Shown: one piece after another, positions 3,454 through 14,944 of the stretch | Layout of the letters: each line of letters begins with the position of its first letter | Position numbering within the stretch: the stretch's first letter is position 1 | Assembly: GCA_026394715.1 (NCBI GenBank) | Contig: JAPKXR010000079.1 | Coordinates: 1 to 34,515, forward strand | Source: Methanomicrobiales archaeon | Lineage (GTDB): Archaea; Halobacteriota; Methanomicrobia; Methanomicrobiales; Methanospirillaceae | DNA length: 34,515 nucleotides | Reading direction: 5' to 3' | The notes under the pieces: model-generated | Seen by the model: the letters and a program-made list of their open reading frames with translations, nothing else | What the model was told of the DNA's origin: nothing | The model's database searches: none | Translations under genes and position numbers: made by a program

Positions 3454-6400
3454 TCAGACCCTGAACTTGGACATCTCTCTCGAGATACTATCGACGATAC
3501 TGTTCACGTTACCCACGACCTTGGTAATCTGGTCAATGGATGCTGATGCTTCCTCTGCAGCGGCAGCGGCATCCATTGCACCTTTTGCAGTCCCATGAAC
3601 CATCTGCTGTACTTCACTGACGCTTGCCGTCACTTCTTCCACGGTAGCTGCCTGCTCTTCACTGGCACTGGCTACTTCCACGATGTTCTTGCTGATGTCC
3701 TCGATTGAACGGACTATATCTTTGAACGAACGGAGTGTCTGGCTGAGTGCTTCGCTTCCGGCTTTCACTTCACGGTTGGAGGATGCCACTGCTTCACCGG
3801 CAGCTATGGACTTCTTCTGGAGTGTCCCGATCATATCCGCAATATTCTCCGCAGACGCACGTGATTCCTGGGCGAGTGATTTGACTTCAGTGGCGACCAC
3901 GGCAAAGCCCCTGCCTGCTTCTCCTGCACGGGCAGCTTCAATTGCCGCATTGAGGGCAAGGAGGTTGGTCTGGTTCGCAAGGTCACTGATCAGGCCGACG
4001 ATCTTGCCAATCTTGTCCATCTCTGCCTTGATATCGACAATAATTTTGTCGACCTCGTTTGAAGAGGTGGTAATGCTCTGCATGCCCCGCTCTGCCTGTT
4101 CGGCAAGGCCGGTACCTTTCACGCTCAGCGTGTTTGCGTCCTCTGTCAGTTGCGATACCTTTTCAGCCTTCTGGGCAACTTCGGTCACCGTCTGGTTGAG
4201 GTCTTCCATGGCCCGCAATACCTGGCCTATCCCCTCAGTCCCTCGTTCTGCATTTTCGCTGACCCCCTGAGCATTCTTTGCGATATGTTCCGCACCGGAC
4301 GATACCTCTTCGATACTGGCATTTGCCTCCTCTGCACTTGATGCAAGTTCCATGACCTGCTGGTTGATCATGGTCACTGCTTTGGAGACTTCGATTCCTG
4401 TGTTATTGAGTGCTTCTTTGAACCTGATGAAGTCGCCTTCCACGTGAAGGTTTTCATCAACCCGGGCTGAAAAATTGCATTTTGCAAATTCGTTGGCCAT
4501 GCGCATTGCTTCATTAACAGGGCTGACCACCGAGTCGAGTGTCGAGTTGAAACCATCGACGATCTTTTTGTAATCTCCCATGTGTTTCGTCGCATCCGCC
4601 CGCGTTTTGAGTTTCCCTTCAACGGCTGCCTTTGCAAGCATATTGGCATCAACAACGAGACCGTTGATCGCGTCGATGCAGGCATTTAAGGTATTTTTGA
4701 TCTCGTTGAAGTCCCCGTTGTACTTATCGGTGATCTTCTGTGGGATCTCCCCCTTACTTATCCGGTCAACATACTCGGCAGCTACATTCAGTGGACCGAT
4801 AACAGCGTCGAGGGTTTCGTTGATCCCCTTCATAAGGTTCTTGTATTCCCCCTGGTGCTTGGTAAGATCAGCCCTTGTGTCAAGTTTCCCTTCAACGGCT
4901 GCCTTTGTAAGCATATTGGCGTCAGCCATCATCCGGTCAACGGTCTCAAGGCAGTTGATAATCGCGGGGAGGATGTGGTCCTGCTCGCTTCTCTTGCCTA
5001 TCCGTTTGAGTTCTGGCAGGCCCTTTGTATCACCCATGGCAATATCGTTGATCTGTTTTGTAACCGTACGGAGTCTCTCCCGCACCGTGTTTGTGGATTC
5101 AGCCATACTGGAAAAGATACCTAGATATTTTCCCTCAACACTCTTACTGTGATCGTTCATTGCCATATGATGCAGGACCGTATCGCATTCAACAAGACCC
5201 TGAAGTCCGTCAATACAGGCATTCAGGTTATTTTTTATCTCATTAAAGTCTCCGTTGTACTTATCGGTAATCTTCTGTGGGATCTCCCCCTTGCTGATCC
5301 TGTCAACATATTCGGCAGTCACGTTAAGGGGATGTACAAATGCATCGATTAAATCATTGACCCCGCCAACCAGTTTCCCCCAGCCGCCGGGGAACTTCTG
5401 GGCGTTGCCCCGTGTATCAAGTTTACCGGCCTTGGTTGCGTGGATTAATACCTCTGTCTCAAGAAGCAGCCCGTTCATGACATCGATGCAGCCGTTTAAA
5501 TTATTCTTGATCTCGTTGAAGTCCCCCTTGTAGGTGTCGGTGATCTTCGCCGGGATCTCCCCTTTGCTGATCCTGTCAACATATTCAGCGGTCACGTTGA
5601 GCGGATGTACAAATGCATCGATTAAATCATTAACCCCGCCAACCAGTTTCCCCCAGCCGCCGGGGAATTTCTGGACGTTCCCCCGTGTGTCAAGTTTCCC
5701 GTCTTTTGTTGCCTGGACTAATCCCTCGGTCTCAGAAAGCAGCCCGTTCATGACATCGATGCAGCCGTTTAAATTATTCTTAATCTCGTTGAAGTCGCCG
5801 TTGTACTTGTCAGTGATCTTCGCCGGGATCTCTCCCTTGCTGATCCGGTCAACATACTCAGCAGCGACATTGAGGGGACCAATAACCGCATCAAGGGTAG
5901 CATTTACGCCTTCGATGATTTTCCTGAAATCCCCAAGATGCCTGGTCGCATCAGCCCGTGTATCGAGTTTTCCATCCACCGCTGCCTTTGCCAGCACGTT
6001 GGCATCGGTGATCATGCGGGTAAGAGCGCCCTGGACATCAGCCAGGTTATTATTGATCCCGGCAAAATTTGTGTGGGCTTCGCTTGTATTTTCAGTTGGT
6101 GCAGCAATATTAAGGTCAAATGCGAGATTTCCTGTCGCAAGCATCCCAAGGTTCGATGAGAGGGTAGCAAGATATATATCGGTGAAATCTGCCAGCTCCG
6201 ATTTAGCCAGGTCCTGCTTACGTTTCTCAGTGTTGTCCTGGTACGTCGCCATCATGCTGACGATCTCTCCCTCTTTATCGAGGAGCGGGATGGAATGCTG
6301 CTCGAGATACTTTACCCCGGTTGGAAACTCAACAACTACATCCCCGGTAACACCTTTTTTTGTCTCGATGGCTTCCTTGATCCCATGGCCGCTCTTTTCC

Positions 6401-6969
6401 AGGACCTTGAACTCTTTCATGCTCATCTTCTGGAGACGTTCCTCGGACCACCCGCAAAGTGTAAGAAAAGACTCATTTGCAAGTTTGATCTCCAGGTTCG
6501 TTGAAAAGATGATCAACGGCATGGGGTTCTGCATGATCATGGTAAAAGCGAGCTGCTTCTGTTTCTTTGCCTCGTCGATAGCCTTTCTCCGCTTCACATA
6601 CTCTTCAATTTCACGGTTAATAGCTGGTACCAGGCGGGTATAGTTGCCTTTGGTTATGAAATCATGAGCGCCGGCTTTCATGACCGAAATTGCAGTCTCC
6701 TCCCCCATTACACCGGATATTACAATGAACGGGGTCCAGATTTTCGTCTCCTTCATGAGTTTTAATGCAGGTAATGCGCCGAAGTTTGGGATTGAATAAT
6801 CACAAAGGATGACGTCCCATGTCTCACGTCCCAGCGCAGCTCGCATCTGCGGTTCAGTATCCACCCGTTCATGCCGGACTTTCAGTCCTGCATGGGTCAG
6901 TGCATGCACGAGCAGTTCTGCATCATCTGGCGAATCTTCAACAATCAGAATATTAATTTCCGTATTCAT
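3454..6969 (-). CDS. soluble receiver-PAS-polyHAMP methyl-accepting chemotaxis transducer
   Basis: Encodes 1171 residues with no membrane segment. Order of domains: a response-regulator receiver (about 5-125) with acidic pocket E11/D12, phosphoacceptor D57 in the motif LCDYS, S85 and K107; a PAS domain (about 138-250); a long array of HAMP-like units (about 260-860) in which the blocks KLDTR and [13 protein letters not shown] recur; and an MCP signalling domain (about 865-1171) whose hairpin tip around residues 998-1033 carries the highly conserved [11 protein letters not shown] motif. The tip contacts CheA and CheW, so phosphorylation of the receiver or ligand binding at PAS may be passed through the HAMP stack to a CheA kinase. 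No che genes lie nearby. Start: ATG with GGTGAG about 5 nt upstream. Length is well above ordinary MCPs (about 500-800) because of the repeated units. Confidence 0.92.
4615..5970 (-). repeat. in-frame 273-bp tandem repeats encoding HAMP-like units
   Basis: The Lys codon of the KLDTR (or KLKTR) block recurs at residues 334, 425, 516, 695 and 786, giving spacings of 91, 91, 179 and 91 residues. DNA units are 5698-5970, 5425-5697, 5152-5424 and 4615-4887. The 179-residue step fits one further, strongly diverged unit. Units 5425-5697 and 5152-5424 are close to 90 percent identical in the parts I compared by eye, pointing to recent duplication or gene conversion. Confidence 0.85.
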
Positions 6970-7995: not shown

Positions 7996-9630
7996 TCACG
8001 AATTAATGGTGTAAACAATCTTCCCGTCCCTGAAAATGGAGATCAGACCTCCACTCTGCGATACCACGACCCCTACTGATTTGGTGACCTGGGTGATGCC
8101 GGCGACTGACGAATGCCGTGAACCCAGTCCCCCGGGAAGGTCCACGTTGCTCAGGTCAACGGTGATGCACCTTCCTGCCGCCTCGACTACACCGCTACCA
8201 GAAACGAGGAACGCCCCGTCAAGCTGGGCGAATTCCTTGATATTCCCCCGGATCCCTGAATCCGTAATCTGTCGTTTGGCTTCATGGTGACCGTGGAATG
8301 GGTTTAAGACAAATTGTTTGGAATTAGTCAGAACGTTCTCCGTGTCGCCGACAACAAATGATGTCCCGATCGCCTGACCCTCCCGTCCTTCACGGGCAAT
8401 TTCCACGGCAACCCGTATGACCGGATCAAGTACGTCAGGCGACACGTCGGTCCCGGAACAGATCATTATCAGTTCTTCCGGTGACGGCAGGGCTCCCTGC
8501 TTGGGGCCCGCCCTCGGTGAAAAAGACTTCGGGATATCCTGCGGGTTTGACATTTTCATCCTCCGCAGGGTAATCCGTTGCACCAAAACCACAAGAGCTA
8601 CGACGATGATGGTCGTGACGATGATGATAAGGTACACCGGCGTTTCATTCGGCGGGGGGCCTGATGTAGCCTGCCCGGGGATGGTGGGACGCTCCTCCTT
8701 CAGATCCAGCGTAATTCTTTTGGTGGTGGATTGCCCGTCCGACTGGTTTCCCGTGATGGCAATGGTGAAAATCCCAAGACTGTCGTACTGGTGAGTTACC
8801 GGAAGATCGGTAGATTTCGTGCTGTTTCCGTCATTCCAGTCGACACTCACCGACTCGATAGTGACACCTGGTGATCCGGGATTGAGATTCCCATTCAGCG
8901 TGACATTCATCCTGTCGGTCACCGGTTCAAGGAGGGTCAGGGCCGGTGGCAGTACCTTCATGCCTGGTCCACCCGGTCCCCCGGGTATCGAGCTGTTCGG
9001 CTGTACGGGGGGTGAGTAAGGAATAACCGGTTTCATTACAGAAATGTTCAAACTCTTTGTGGTATTCTGCCCGTCGGACTGCAGGGCAGTGATAGACACG
9101 GTATAATTGCCAGGACTGCTGTACCCATGCGAATACGGGAACCCGTGGTATTCTGGCGGGCGACTGTCCCCCCAGTCCCAACGGGTGCTCACCAGGGTCA
9201 CGTTCATTGAGCCGGTTGTAACAGTCCCATAAATGGTACAGGTCAGATTCTCTATAACCGGCGTGCCGAGTATAAGGAGGGGTGGCAGGGAGGTGGCACG
9301 GGTCTTATTCTCACGGACAAGGGCGGTCGTGGGGCCCGGTTTTGTCGCCTGGCTGGTAACCCCGGTTGCTATGCTGGTCGTGACCGTGGTGCGTGGACTG
9401 TTATTAACCGGTGTATCCGAGAAGGTCCCCCGCTGAGTTGTTTGAACCGAAGGATCCGGTGTGGTCGCCTGGCTGATATTTCCTGGCAACAGGCTGGAAG
9501 TGACCGCGGGGCCCGGGGTAGTAGTAACCAATGTCTCCGCAATGACTACGCCCGGCAGTACGACGAGGATAATGCATATAATTGTTGTGATTAGCCGAAA
9601 TACGGAAAGTTTACATCGTTCATGGAGCAA
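7996..9630 (-). CDS. membrane PKD-domain protein with cytoplasmic diadenylate cyclase (DAC) domain
   Basis: Encodes 544 residues. Order: signal peptide or anchor (10-31), Thr/Pro-rich stalk (33-115), two PKD beta-sandwich domains (about 117-198 with WDWGD; about 230-310 with VDWNDG), a transmembrane helix (332-351), and a C-terminal domain (about 385-544) that I assign to the DisA_N/DAC family. Support for the last is IGTSFVVGD, then DGA (471-473) and RHS within GSRHSSVAGIT (503-513), followed by VVVSQSGGLISIF. These correspond to the DGA and RHR catalytic/ATP-binding motifs of cyclic di-AMP synthases and resemble archaeal DacZ. Predicted role: make c-di-AMP from two ATP, controlled by an extracellular PKD module. 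The start is TTG, the only start-like codon before the signal peptide, so it is uncertain. It lies downstream of the polyphosphate enzyme on the same strand. Confidence 0.8.
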   Translation of the reverse strand: MLHERCKLSVFRLITTIICIILVVLPGVVIAETLVTTTPGPAVTSSLLPGNISQATTPDPSVQTTQRGTFSDTPVNNSPRTTVTTSIATGVTSQATKPGPTTALVRENKTRATSLPPLLILGTPVIENLTCTIYGTVTTGSMNVTLVSTRWDWGDSRPPEYHGFPYSHGYSSPGNYTVSITALQSDGQNTTKSLNISVMKPVIPYSPPVQPNSSIPGGPGGPGMKVLPPALTLLEPVTDRMNVTLNGNLNPGSPGVTIESVSVDWNDGNSTKSTDLPVTHQYDSLGIFTIAITGNQSDGQSTTKRITLDLKEERPTIPGQATSGPPPNETPVYLIIIVTTIIVVALVVLVQRITLRRMKMSNPQDIPKSFSPRAGPKQGALPSPEELIMICSGTDVSPDVLDPVIRVAVEIAREGREGQAIGTSFVVGDTENVLTNSKQFVLNPFHGHHEAKRQITDSGIRGNIKEFAQLDGAFLVSGSGVVEAAGRCITVDLSNVDLPGGLGSRHSSVAGITQVTKSVGVVVSQSGGLISIFRDGKIVYTINS

Positions 9631-9807
9631 ATGGAAAACCCGGGGTATCGTTCTGTTCTGTAGGATTATCTGATTAATCGTTCTTAAAATTACGGATGAA
9701 ACCCCCCTGGATCCCGGACGGGATTAGGAGAATTTTTGATGAGTCGCAGGATGAAGAAAACATCAACCGTTACGAGGATATTTTTTCCCAAGGATATCCG
9801 GGAAAAT

Positions 9808-11298
9808 TTAAAAAAGAGATTGCCCATAGTCCACGAGAGTCTTCATCGTCTTAATCCTGGCATACCATTTATCATCAGACGGAATTACGGTCCAGGGGGC
9901 ATGGTCCGTGTTGGTATATGAAATCATATCATCGATGGCCCGGGTATAAAGGTCCCATTTCTCACGGTTCCGCCAGTCTTCTTCGGTAATTTTCCAGATC
10001 TTTAATGGGTCAGCAACACGCTGCTGGAACCGTTTCAACTGCTCCTCTTTATTGATCTCCAGCCAGAACTTAATGATACCTCCACCATTTTCTGTAAATT
10101 CCTCTTCCATCTCATTGATCTCTGTATATGCCCGTTTCCATTCAGTCTCTGTGCAGAACCCTTCCACCCGTTCAACAAGGACACGCCCGTACCAGCTCCG
10201 GTCAAAAATGGTAATGTGACCTGCCTTCGGGTACTTCTGGTAAAATCTCCAGAGGTAGTGGTGTTTTTTCTCGGTGTCGGATGGTGGACCCACCGGGGCA
10301 ACATTGAACCCAAGGGGATGCATAAACCGGGAAATCCGCAGGATACTACCCCCCTTCCCTGCAGCATCCCGTCCCTCGTAAACAATAATCAATGGAATTT
10401 TACGCTTGTGCAGGATAGAATGGAACTCGATCATCTCGAATTGGAGGTGTTCAAGTGATTCCTGGCATTCCTCTTTAATGCAGGTTTCAGGAGGCGATGA
10501 CTCCAGTCTGATCATCCTCGTCTTTGGGAGGTGAACGTCTTTATTGCTGACCTTTTCTTTTTTATTCGTGCTTTTCTTATCAATTGTTTTTTTATCGATC
10601 CTGTTTTCCAGCGCCTTTACAAGGATGGAATTAACGTTCAATAGGGCCAACCCGAGGTCTGTGGCCGGGATGATATGCCATGGAGCGCAATCGGTATCAG
10701 TTTTCTCAATCAGGTCATCGATTGCCGGCAGGTTATCATCGTACTGGTGATGGATTCTCCAGACCCGCGGGGTGACCTGCCACGCGGTGAGCGGGTTTCG
10801 CTCCTGATGTTCCAGGCGCCGCTTCTGTTCCTCCTTACTGATGTGCAGGAAAATTTTTACAATCACCGTCCCGCTATCAATGAGTTGCTGCTCAAAATTA
10901 TTGATCCATGTCCTCTTCTCTTTGAAGGATTTCTTCCAGACCGCCCGCATCATCTCTTCTGCAATCGCCCGGCTGTACCAGCTCCGTGCAAAAATTGCAA
11001 TACGTCCGTTTTCAGGAGTTTTACACCAGTACCTCCACATGAACGGGTGGGCGGCCTCTTCCAATGTCGGGCCCTTGATTGCATGGAGATCATATCCCCG
11101 CGGGTCAAATGAACGGATGATCTCTCTCGTTATTTCAGTGATCCCTGATTCGTTCCAGCCTTCGATAACGATCATGACCGGGATTTTCCGGTTCTGAATT
11201 GTGCGCTGGAGGACTCCGAGCATCTCCTGAAGTGGCGGCAGCTCCTTTTCCAGCGTTTTATCATCTATGGTTTCAGTCAGATCACATCGTTCCAGCAT
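9808..11298 (-). CDS. pap: polyphosphate:AMP phosphotransferase (two-domain PPK2)
   Basis: Encodes 496 residues with two fused PPK2 domains, as in class II PPK2 enzymes, which use polyphosphate to turn AMP into ADP. The second domain (about 280-496) has a normal P-loop EGRDAAGKG (308-316) and Walker-B-like FDRSWYGR (365-372). The first (about 20-230) has a decayed P-loop EGWNESG (46-52) and FARSWYSR (103-110), where Asp is replaced by Ala, so it is probably structural. A Lys-rich linker (about 235-255) joins the two. I chose the ATG at 11298 because the reading frame before it (GTG at 11352, 18 extra residues) lacks a ribosome binding site and protein-like sequence. A 177-nt gap separates it from the downstream cyclase gene. 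Cytoplasmic. Confidence 0.9.
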   Translation of the reverse strand: MLERCDLTETIDDKTLEKELPPLQEMLGVLQRTIQNRKIPVMIVIEGWNESGITEITREIIRSFDPRGYDLHAIKGPTLEEAAHPFMWRYWCKTPENGRIAIFARSWYSRAIAEEMMRAVWKKSFKEKRTWINNFEQQLIDSGTVIVKIFLHISKEEQKRRLEHQERNPLTAWQVTPRVWRIHHQYDDNLPAIDDLIEKTDTDCAPWHIIPATDLGLALLNVNSILVKALENRIDKKTIDKKSTNKKEKVSNKDVHLPKTRMIRLESSPPETCIKEECQESLEHLQFEMIEFHSILHKRKIPLIIVYEGRDAAGKGGSILRISRFMHPLGFNVAPVGPPSDTEKKHHYLWRFYQKYPKAGHITIFDRSWYGRVLVERVEGFCTETEWKRAYTEINEMEEEFTENGGGIIKFWLEINKEEQLKRFQQRVADPLKIWKITEEDWRNREKWDLYTRAIDDMISYTNTDHAPWTVIPSDDKWYARIKTMKTLVDYGQSLF

Positions 11299-11959
11299 GG
11301 GGACCTGCCCGGGCCTGACCTGAGTTACGGGTAATAACCTGGGCCCGCCCACCTTATTGCGGTTGTTTAACCGTATGAGGCAATAAATCCATGGATCAAA
11401 CGGTACTCCAAGGCTCTGGGCAACCGTCCTCGCGTTCCCACCGGCCCCCTATAATACGTCCGACTTATTCGGACCTTTCAGACCGTATGCTTATCCCGAC
11501 GGACACGCCCTATATTTCGAATGGTTTTTTTCGTATACCTTTCATTCTACGCCTATAGGCACCTATCCTGCCGGACGCGTTGGACCTGCATTTCCCGCTG
11601 TTGTGCCCTGATTCTGCTCATCGGGCCTAGAGCGTGTATACCGGAACCCACTGGCTGAGATACGTAATAGGAGGCAAATAGCATCGGCAAATCCTGTTTG
11701 ATCATCCTGATACCGATGTATCTGGACATAACGTTCCAGTATGATTGGATGATTGGAACGTCAGGGGGGGGGTCTTCGTGAAAGGACAGGTCTGGGTTAG
11801 GTACAGATCGTGCATTACTTTGGCATGACCAGGGATTCAGGTCAGCATGAGGACTTCCATTTCAATTGCCAAATAATCAATTGCCGTCTTTGATAATTCC
11901 GGACGCGGAGATCACGTAAGGAACTTATGGTACCGGAAAAATATTTGGGGAATACCACA
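11299..11959. other. intergenic, no supported gene
   Basis: About 660 nt upstream of pap and downstream of the 271-residue membrane protein gene. It holds a small hairpin GTCCGA-CTTAT-TCGGAC (11458-11474), the inverted repeat at 11731-11761 and a run of nine G at 11764-11772. No frame is protein-like. Confidence 0.55.
11731..11761. repeat. inverted repeat, 8-bp perfect arms
   Basis: ACGTTCCA (11731-11738) and TGGAACGT (11754-11761) are exact reverse complements separated by 15 nt. The spacer contains a short direct repeat, GATTGGAT-GATTGGA. This could be a dimeric regulator site or a weak RNA hairpin; no gene start is adjacent. Confidence 0.45.
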
Positions 11960-12775
11960 TCAGACTGTGTTATTCACGGGTTGAATTGTTTCGATTTTTA
12001 ATTTTTCCATTTCTGCATCCTGCGAATCAAAGTAGGACTCAAGGTACACGAGTGTCTCCATGTCGACATCGGCATAGGTATGTGCCCCAAACTCGAACGG
12101 GTTGTCCATATCCCTGATAAGAAATAACAGGCCAATGAGCATTGTCACGATGACCGCGAAAATGATTACTCCTTCAAGGTAGGGATCTATTTTGATAAAT
12201 AAAAGGAGAAGGATCACACCTCCTGTGGCGACCTCCGCGAGTGCATACGCCGCAGGGATGAAATCAGTCCTGATAATTACATCTATCCTGTTTGCCATTT
12301 TATCGATTGCACCAAGTTCATTTCTCAGTTTTGCAATCAGTGGAGGGGCGACATTCGCATAGGACAGGACCCGTATATCATTATTAATTTTATTCATTTC
12401 ATGATTGAGTTCCGGAAGGTTCCAGGCATTCTCCATAAAACATTTGTAAATCTTCCGGTGGAGGTCCCGGACATGAGCCCTGAATACTCCTGCCGGGGCT
12501 TCGTCTGCCAACGGGAGGACCCGGCTGTCATTATATAATGCTTTAAGGGCTGCGGCAAGTTCTCCCCCAACTTTTTCACTCTCTTTGAAGTCTGTAAAAG
12601 TACCTGCGAAAATAATTGCAATGGTAAAAATTGCGCCGCTAATGAAAGCACCTACAACGGTATTGATCGGTACACCATCGAACCCGTAGAAATCAATTAT
12701 TGTCCTTGGTATCAGGAGTATGATCATCAGGACTACGGCCTTGGTCATAATACCCCATTTCTTTTTAAATCCCAT
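11960..12775 (-). CDS. four-helix membrane protein of unknown function (paralogue A)
   Basis: Encodes 271 residues. Hydrophobic helices lie at about 11-30, 38-59, 172-195 and 201-220, with a soluble helical segment of about 110 residues between the pairs. The conserved blocks GAIFTIAIIFAGT (47-59), FIPAAYA (172-178) and LIRDMDNPFE (219-228) are shared with the divergent gene at 14159-14944, so the two are clear paralogues. The end pattern (helix pair, then Asp-Asn-Pro-Phe) recalls DUF4239/bestrophin-like membrane proteins, which is a suggestion only. No ribosome binding site precedes the ATG. A TATA-like stretch 15-30 nt upstream would fit a leaderless or short-leader mRNA. Function, possibly ion conductance, is unknown. 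Confidence 0.8.
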   Translation of the reverse strand: MGFKKKWGIMTKAVVLMIILLIPRTIIDFYGFDGVPINTVVGAFISGAIFTIAIIFAGTFTDFKESEKVGGELAAALKALYNDSRVLPLADEAPAGVFRAHVRDLHRKIYKCFMENAWNLPELNHEMNKINNDIRVLSYANVAPPLIAKLRNELGAIDKMANRIDVIIRTDFIPAAYALAEVATGGVILLLLFIKIDPYLEGVIIFAVIVTMLIGLLFLIRDMDNPFEFGAHTYADVDMETLVYLESYFDSQDAEMEKLKIETIQPVNNTV

Positions 12776-14070: not shown

Positions 14071-14158
14071 TGAGGGATGACTATTTCACAAACCCGGGTT
14101 CCGGCAGGACGGTGCGGTTGCGGGACCGGATAAACATCATTCATAATTGGGAGATACA

Positions 14159-14944
14159 GTGATTATTATGGGATCATTTATGACGAAATGGGGGCTTATT
14201 CTCAAGGCATCCGGAATCACTATCAGCCTGCTTGCCGTAAGGCTGGTTATTGATTACCTATCATTTGACATACTCTCTGTGACGAGCCTGATAACGGCAT
14301 TTATCGGTGGCGCCATTTTTACCATTGCGATTATTTTTGCCGGGACGTTGACCGATTACAAGGAAAGCGAGAAGATACCAGGTGATATTGTGACATCTGT
14401 CAGGACGCTGTACAGTGACTTCACCCTCGTACGCGTGAAGGATATGACGGTTGTTGACGGTATGCAGGGAAATGTCGCTGCCCTGATGCGGTGTATCAAT
14501 AATAACTTTCGTGATAATGCATGGGATATGGAAGCAATGGACGTGGCTATTGATGCGATCACCACAGATATTTCAACACTGGTAGACGGAGGAGTCCCAC
14601 CGAATTTTATCATCAAATTAAAAAGTGAAGTCACCGCCATTGACCGCCTCTCGCACCGGGTGAAAACCATTGCCGAAACATCGTTCATACCGGCGGCCTA
14701 CGCTATTGCAGAACTGGCCGCAGCTGGTGTAATCCTGTTATTGTTTTTTGTAAAACTTGATCCATTTTACGAGGGGATTTTCCTGTTTACGGTACTCTCG
14801 ATGCTGCTCATCGCACTCCTGCTCCTGATAAGAGATATGGACAACCCGTTCGAGGTCGGAAAGAAGACCTATGCGGATATTGATATGTTCCTGCTATGGG
14901 ACCTTGAATTGAAACTCAATGAAAAGACGAACTATAAGAAATAA
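14159..14944 (+). CDS. four-helix membrane protein of unknown function (paralogue B)
   Basis: Encodes 261 residues from GTG 14159. A GGGAG site (14149-14153) is 5 nt upstream, which favours this start over ATG 14168, the position that aligns with the paralogue. The layout matches paralogue A: two N-terminal helices, a soluble helical segment, two C-terminal helices and the block RDMDNPFE. The blocks GAIFTIAIIFAGT and SFIPAAYA are nearly identical between the two. The paralogues face away from each other with the ATPase remnant between them, so they probably arose by duplication and were then separated. Membrane location is clear; substrate or role is not. Confidence 0.8.
   Translation: MIIMGSFMTKWGLILKASGITISLLAVRLVIDYLSFDILSVTSLITAFIGGAIFTIAIIFAGTLTDYKESEKIPGDIVTSVRTLYSDFTLVRVKDMTVVDGMQGNVAALMRCINNNFRDNAWDMEAMDVAIDAITTDISTLVDGGVPPNFIIKLKSEVTAIDRLSHRVKTIAETSFIPAAYAIAELAAAGVILLLFFVKLDPFYEGIFLFTVLSMLLIALLLLIRDMDNPFEVGKKTYADIDMFLLWDLELKLNEKTNYKK

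Follow-up and report, generated by a model that had tools for sequence, protein, structure and literature searches.

A predicted membrane-anchored diadenylate cyclase with extracellular PKD domains in a Methanomicrobiales archaeon

Our analysis concerns a 34,515-nucleotide stretch of DNA from a Methanomicrobiales archaeon (hereafter the window), which is contig C141 of a 3.25 Mb assembly of 402 contigs that is 98% complete. The gene under study, pkd-dac, occupies positions 7996-9630 and is read from the minus strand, a detail that the original prediction for this locus had not given; plus-strand coding in the frame of the same coordinates was rejected because stops occur throughout. Within the open frame (7996-9723) the TTG at 9630 is the sole ATG, GTG or TTG codon ahead of the signal peptide, and no clear Shine-Dalgarno sequence precedes it. 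The same whole architecture was found in 27 distinct sequences; the open reading frame is therefore not a product of chance, and the gene with its PKD-TM-DAC (diadenylate cyclase) layout is confirmed as real. The features of the gene and its upstream neighbour are as follows.

7996..9630, minus strand: pkd-dac gene, 544 codons, start TTG at 9630, stop 7996-7998
9538..9630, minus strand: signal peptide, residues 1-31; h-region ITTIICIILVVL, predicted cleavage between VIA and ET, hydropathy helix 13-31; aligns with the equivalent element of homologues
9295..9537, minus strand: extracellular stalk rich in Thr, Pro and Ser, residues 32-112; mean pairwise identity 24%, AF2 pLDDT mostly <50
9031..9294, minus strand: PKD domain 1, residues 113-200; Pfam PKD_4/PKD, AF2 pLDDT ~96
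8695..8949, minus strand: PKD domain 2, residues 228-312; Pfam and AF2, mean pairwise identity 59%
8581..8637, minus strand: single transmembrane helix, residues 332-350; hydropathy 3.28, AF2 helix 330-358, with basic QRITLRRMK directly after it
8455..8574, minus strand: juxtamembrane linker, residues 353-392; disordered in part according to AF2, with pLDDT <50 at 360-376
7999..8454, minus strand: DAC domain, residues 393-544; PF02457, AF2, Foldseek and a profile match to solved CdaA
8212..8220, minus strand: DGA motif with the catalytic Asp, residues 471-473; invariant in alignments A1-A3
8110..8118, minus strand: R-H-S at the position of the RHR motif, residues 505-507; the first two invariant, the third variable
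9808..11352, minus strand: two-domain polyphosphate kinase 2 (PPK2), upstream of pkd-dac; Pfam 459 bits

Hydropathy analysis of the 544-residue protein demonstrated two hydrophobic helices (residues 13-31 and 332-350), and two PKD copies passed the Pfam cut-off with a PKD fold (PF18911/PF00801, 49.8 and 33.9 bits). Both PKD domains and the DAC domain were modelled at pLDDT ~95 in the full-chain AF2 prediction, and a Foldseek search found the PKD model to resemble the PKD domain of Vibrio Epp (6aem, TMt 0.88). Hydropathy and Pfam agree with the order originally proposed, namely a signal peptide, a Thr/Pro stalk, two PKD domains, a membrane helix and a C-terminal cyclase. All 13 N-X-S/T sequons of the protein are confined to residues 51-328, leaving the predicted cytoplasmic part free of them; over 27 sequences, the ectodomain region carries 2.27 sequons per 100 aa and the DAC 0.22. 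Together with the signal peptide and the positive-inside placement of the basic QRITLRRMK segment, this distribution supports a topology with the PKD domains outside and the DAC inside, in line with the cytoplasmic end that had been predicted for the cyclase. The PKD ectodomain is presumably glycosylated.

Assignment of the C-terminal domain to the DAC fold is firm. Residues 412-537 score 60.5 bits against Pfam PF02457, whose gathering score is 27, and AF2 modelling of the DAC alone yielded a pLDDT of 93.7. When that model was searched against the PDB with Foldseek, the top 50 matches were all DACs of the DisA/CdaA/CdaM type, and a profile built from 39 DACs retrieved solved CdaA structures at an E value of 6e-11. 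The DGA and RHS motifs lie at residues 471-473 and 505-507 as originally reported, and LDGA (470-473), R505 and H506 are invariant across 47 DACs.

The third residue of the RHR motif had prompted the earlier remark that activity needs testing. Our comparison indicates that RHS is the family norm: every PKD-DAC has Ser or Ala at this position, the PAS-DACs have N, S, A, R or V, and the stand-alone DacZ proteins R, L or M. The case for a degenerate or altered cyclase, one that owing to RHS in place of RHR would bind nucleotide and form either no c-di-AMP or another product, could be made from M. tuberculosis DisA (DacA), in which replacement of the whole RHR by AAA abolished activity (PMC3328451), the third Arg being the one missing here. 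We consider such a protein very improbable, as R and H are retained, the domain is under strong purifying selection, and the third position varies in DacZ as well. In addition, four single-contig relatives (G007, G014, G028 and G035) carry one DAC each, with RHNS. RHS was therefore rejected as a mark of inactivity. Since the DAC gene is essential in H. volcanii (PMC6741144) and RHNS belongs to the sole DAC of four genomes, cyclase activity is, as far as such comparisons can indicate, probably compatible with a third residue other than Arg.

A survey for the same architecture, combining alignment A1 with a scan of named genomes, collected the 27 distinct SP-PKD2-TM-DAC sequences from records named Methanoregula, Methanolinea, Methanospirillaceae and other Methanomicrobiales. 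The scan searched with a pair of short DAC patterns and retained the 80 best matches, so that distant cases may escape it; among those 80, none with this architecture lay outside Methanomicrobiales. A FastTree phylogeny of 144 DAC domains placed the 27 PKD-DACs in one clade (support 0.895) and DacZ in a separate one (support 1.0), with weak support for the deep branches among fused DACs. One PKD-DAC (L071:9098-10933, minus strand) has a DAC end that diverges from all relatives after VGVVQKVLSS, probably through a frameshift or assembly error. Pairwise dN/dS was 0.06-0.18 for the DAC, about 0.08-0.29 for PKD domain 2 and mostly 0.3-1.0 for the stalk, dS being near saturation in several pairs; judged by these ratios, the protein is under purifying selection. 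PKD domain 2 is better conserved than PKD domain 1. The linker is poorly conserved (30% identity) and comes in two lengths, 37-46 aa in some homologues and 108-131 aa in the others, the longer form carrying an inserted segment. A MIT domain was considered as the identity of the long linker in PKD relatives and rejected as not significant (E about 0.07 and worse).

These features lead us to favour, with some confidence, a single-pass membrane-anchored cyclase with PKD domains outside the cell, cytoplasmic c-di-AMP synthesis and control by self-association. Two N-glycosylated PKD domains would be brought to the cell exterior by the signal peptide and stalk, a single helix would span the membrane, and the cytoplasmic DAC, predicted to join two ATP into c-di-AMP, would be held by a basic, flexible linker. 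In DisA and CdaA it is established that two DAC domains, each with one ATP, must meet face to face. Since the DAC domains have to meet in this way, control by self-association appears the most likely form of regulation: contacts of the PKD domains with each other or with PKD-rich surface proteins would shift the frequency of cytoplasmic dimerisation. The c-di-AMP formed would then likely act on K+ or osmotic targets such as RCK_C (TrkA_C) proteins. We infer enzymatic activity, regulation by the ectodomain and targets alike.

The linker bears directly on how, and whether, the two halves of the protein communicate. Its variable length and partly predicted disorder make rigid transmission of strain unlikely and favour either control by association or no control. 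The original prediction had proposed that c-di-AMP is controlled directly from outside the cell, perhaps through strain in the wall or a surface polymer; in such a scheme, tension in the S-layer or the polymer would act on the PKD tandem and open or close the cyclase dimer directly. PKD domains of polycystin can extend under force, and the domain layout alone would suit such a strain gauge. A partly disordered linker of 37-131 aa is nevertheless a poor rigid force transmitter, and no attachment motif or partner was identified; we give this proposal only the slimmest chance. Absence of control is the more serious alternative. The PKD domains and stalk might simply anchor the cyclase to the envelope, its basal rate being set by ATP, metal and expression, and PKD-to-DAC coupling may indeed be weak or absent given so unconserved and partly disordered a linker. 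PKD domains are, moreover, common in the window genome (75 PKD_4 matches) and present in an archaeal S-layer protein (1l0q). The constraint on PKD domain 2, in both identity and dN/dS, nevertheless seems above what a passive spacer would need, and the other DACs of the same genome bear REC/PAS input domains. An unregulated anchored cyclase is rated as unlikely, though well worth keeping in view, and control by self-association remains our preferred reading.

The neighbourhood of pkd-dac was inspected for functional clues. The PPK2 gene adjoins PKD-DAC in 3 genomes and lies about 2-6 kb away in 4 more, with varying distance and orientation. A conserved operon was rejected as a clue to function, as PPK2 alone recurs (7 loci, in closer relatives) and other neighbours appear at no more than 3-4 loci; no operon link of pkd-dac to a K+ or wall pathway was found. 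The next gene downstream (window 3454-6969, minus strand) encodes a 1171-aa signalling protein with a REC-PAS-HAMP array-MCP layout. Two weak bestrophin-like proteins, both below the Pfam cut-off, are encoded close together on opposite strands (window 11960-12775, minus, and 14147-14944, plus). Elsewhere in the window genome there are 8 TrkA_C matches, whose proteins are possible c-di-AMP targets, and 4 DHHA1 matches.

The window genome contains three DACs, namely the PKD-TM-DAC, a REC-PAS-PAS-DAC (L046) and a PAS-PAS-DAC (L047). A search for a second, stand-alone DacZ found none in this 98%-complete assembly. Within the window's family, stand-alone DacZ was absent from 29 of the 34 DAC-bearing genomes, several of those being incomplete, and in a 295-genome sample of the phylum, genomes outside the family mostly carried one short DAC each.

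Further DAC fusions were encountered in the same comparisons. A TrkH potassium transporter with a C-terminal DAC in one open frame occurs in three Methanomicrobiales genomes or records (L098:7693-9756, L104:5458-7596 and L140:1277-3478, all on the plus strand); this fusion, perhaps more striking than PKD-DAC, physically ties K+ transport to c-di-AMP synthesis. Proteins with a signal peptide-TPR-TM-DAC layout were also observed (L082, L088, L068, L045, L054, L065 and L074), for example in M. hungatei (G026). A Candidatus Methanoperedens MAG encodes a 560-aa protein (L157:4795-6477, plus strand) with a weak MIT-like N-terminus, an AAA ATPase that is Vps4-like by layout, and a DAC. Short DACs with a MIT-like N-terminal domain (L136:5743-6492, plus strand, with L137, L138, L139 and L143) come mostly from Methanoperedens-type archaea; the MIT-like match of L136 has an E value of 1.8e-05 and is below the Pfam cut-off. 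Bacterial PTS EIIA-DacZ_P-DAC fusions (L182, L187 and L192) were found in Planctomycetes and Spirochaetes.

The range of inputs joined to DAC in Methanomicrobiales (PKD or TPR with a TM helix, REC/PAS, and TrkH) suggests a broader, tentative interpretation, to which we lend rather less credence than to the mechanism above: DAC may serve in this order as the output module of a receptor family, much like bacterial GGDEF, with the stand-alone enzyme seemingly lost in most genomes of the window's family and the window protein setting c-di-AMP as a genuine surface receptor. No GGDEF domain was found in the window genome. Our literature search found no archaeal c-di-AMP synthase whose signal is known. 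A lineage in which all DACs bear recognisable inputs would open archaeal c-di-AMP control to tests through domain swaps and ligand screens, and should the PKD part regulate the enzyme, the protein would be a surface receptor that produces a dinucleotide messenger directly.

The window protein was compared with known diadenylate cyclases. Its DAC belongs to one superfamily with that of DacZ/CdaZ (H. volcanii, M. jannaschii), whose model NF041371 matches window protein residues 396-543; the match covers only model positions 122-266, and at 110.3 bits versus 430 the protein fails the full-length model, which includes a PK_C-like N-domain. The stand-alone DacZ proteins of Methanomicrobiales, by contrast, are ~270 aa long, have no TM helix and carry GGRH[RLM]A. 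With CdaA/DacA of Firmicutes the window protein shares a membrane-anchored DAC and its fold. In CdaA, which acts together with CdaR/GlmM, N-terminal TM helices stand directly before the DAC and an extracellular domain is absent, whereas the window protein has a single TM helix after an ectodomain and scores 24.4 bits versus 188.8 on TIGR00159. DisA shares the DAC fold and DGA but has RHR and an N-terminal DAC, the window DAC being C-terminal; a Pfam search found no HhH part of the DisA type in the window protein. The other fused DACs of Methanomicrobiales (REC-PAS-PAS-DAC and TPR-TM-DAC) group with the PKD-DACs apart from DacZ, with weak deep support, and differ in having PAS/REC or TPR inputs rather than PKD.

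According to the account relayed in PMC6741144, Corrigan and Gruendling in 2013 defined five classes of archaeal DACs (DacV to DacZ), with B8GHP5 of M. palustris representing DacV, an M. hungatei protein DacW and an M. boonei protein DacX. The view that archaeal enzymes are soluble and short holds for DacZ; it does not hold overall, as by the same account DacV, DacW and DacX carry other attached domains (PMC6741144). Because these three classes were named from Methanomicrobiales in 2013, fused archaeal cyclases are, on that account, already known from sequence and the novelty of PKD-TM-DAC is limited; a literature search found no published biochemistry on any PKD-TM-DAC. The representatives of DacX (M. 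boonei) and DacW (M. hungatei) are probably among the PAS/REC or TPR fused DACs. Methanosphaerula palustris (G006), the source of DacV, carries two DACs, one SP-PKD2-TM-DAC (L056) and one DacZ, and as the relayed scheme stands the DacV class therefore probably corresponds to the PKD-TM-DAC architecture. This DacV candidate has the SP-PKD2-TM-DAC layout of the window protein, is 35% identical to it overall and is similar along the whole DAC, but its linker of ~120 aa contains an inserted segment, versus 42 aa in the window protein.
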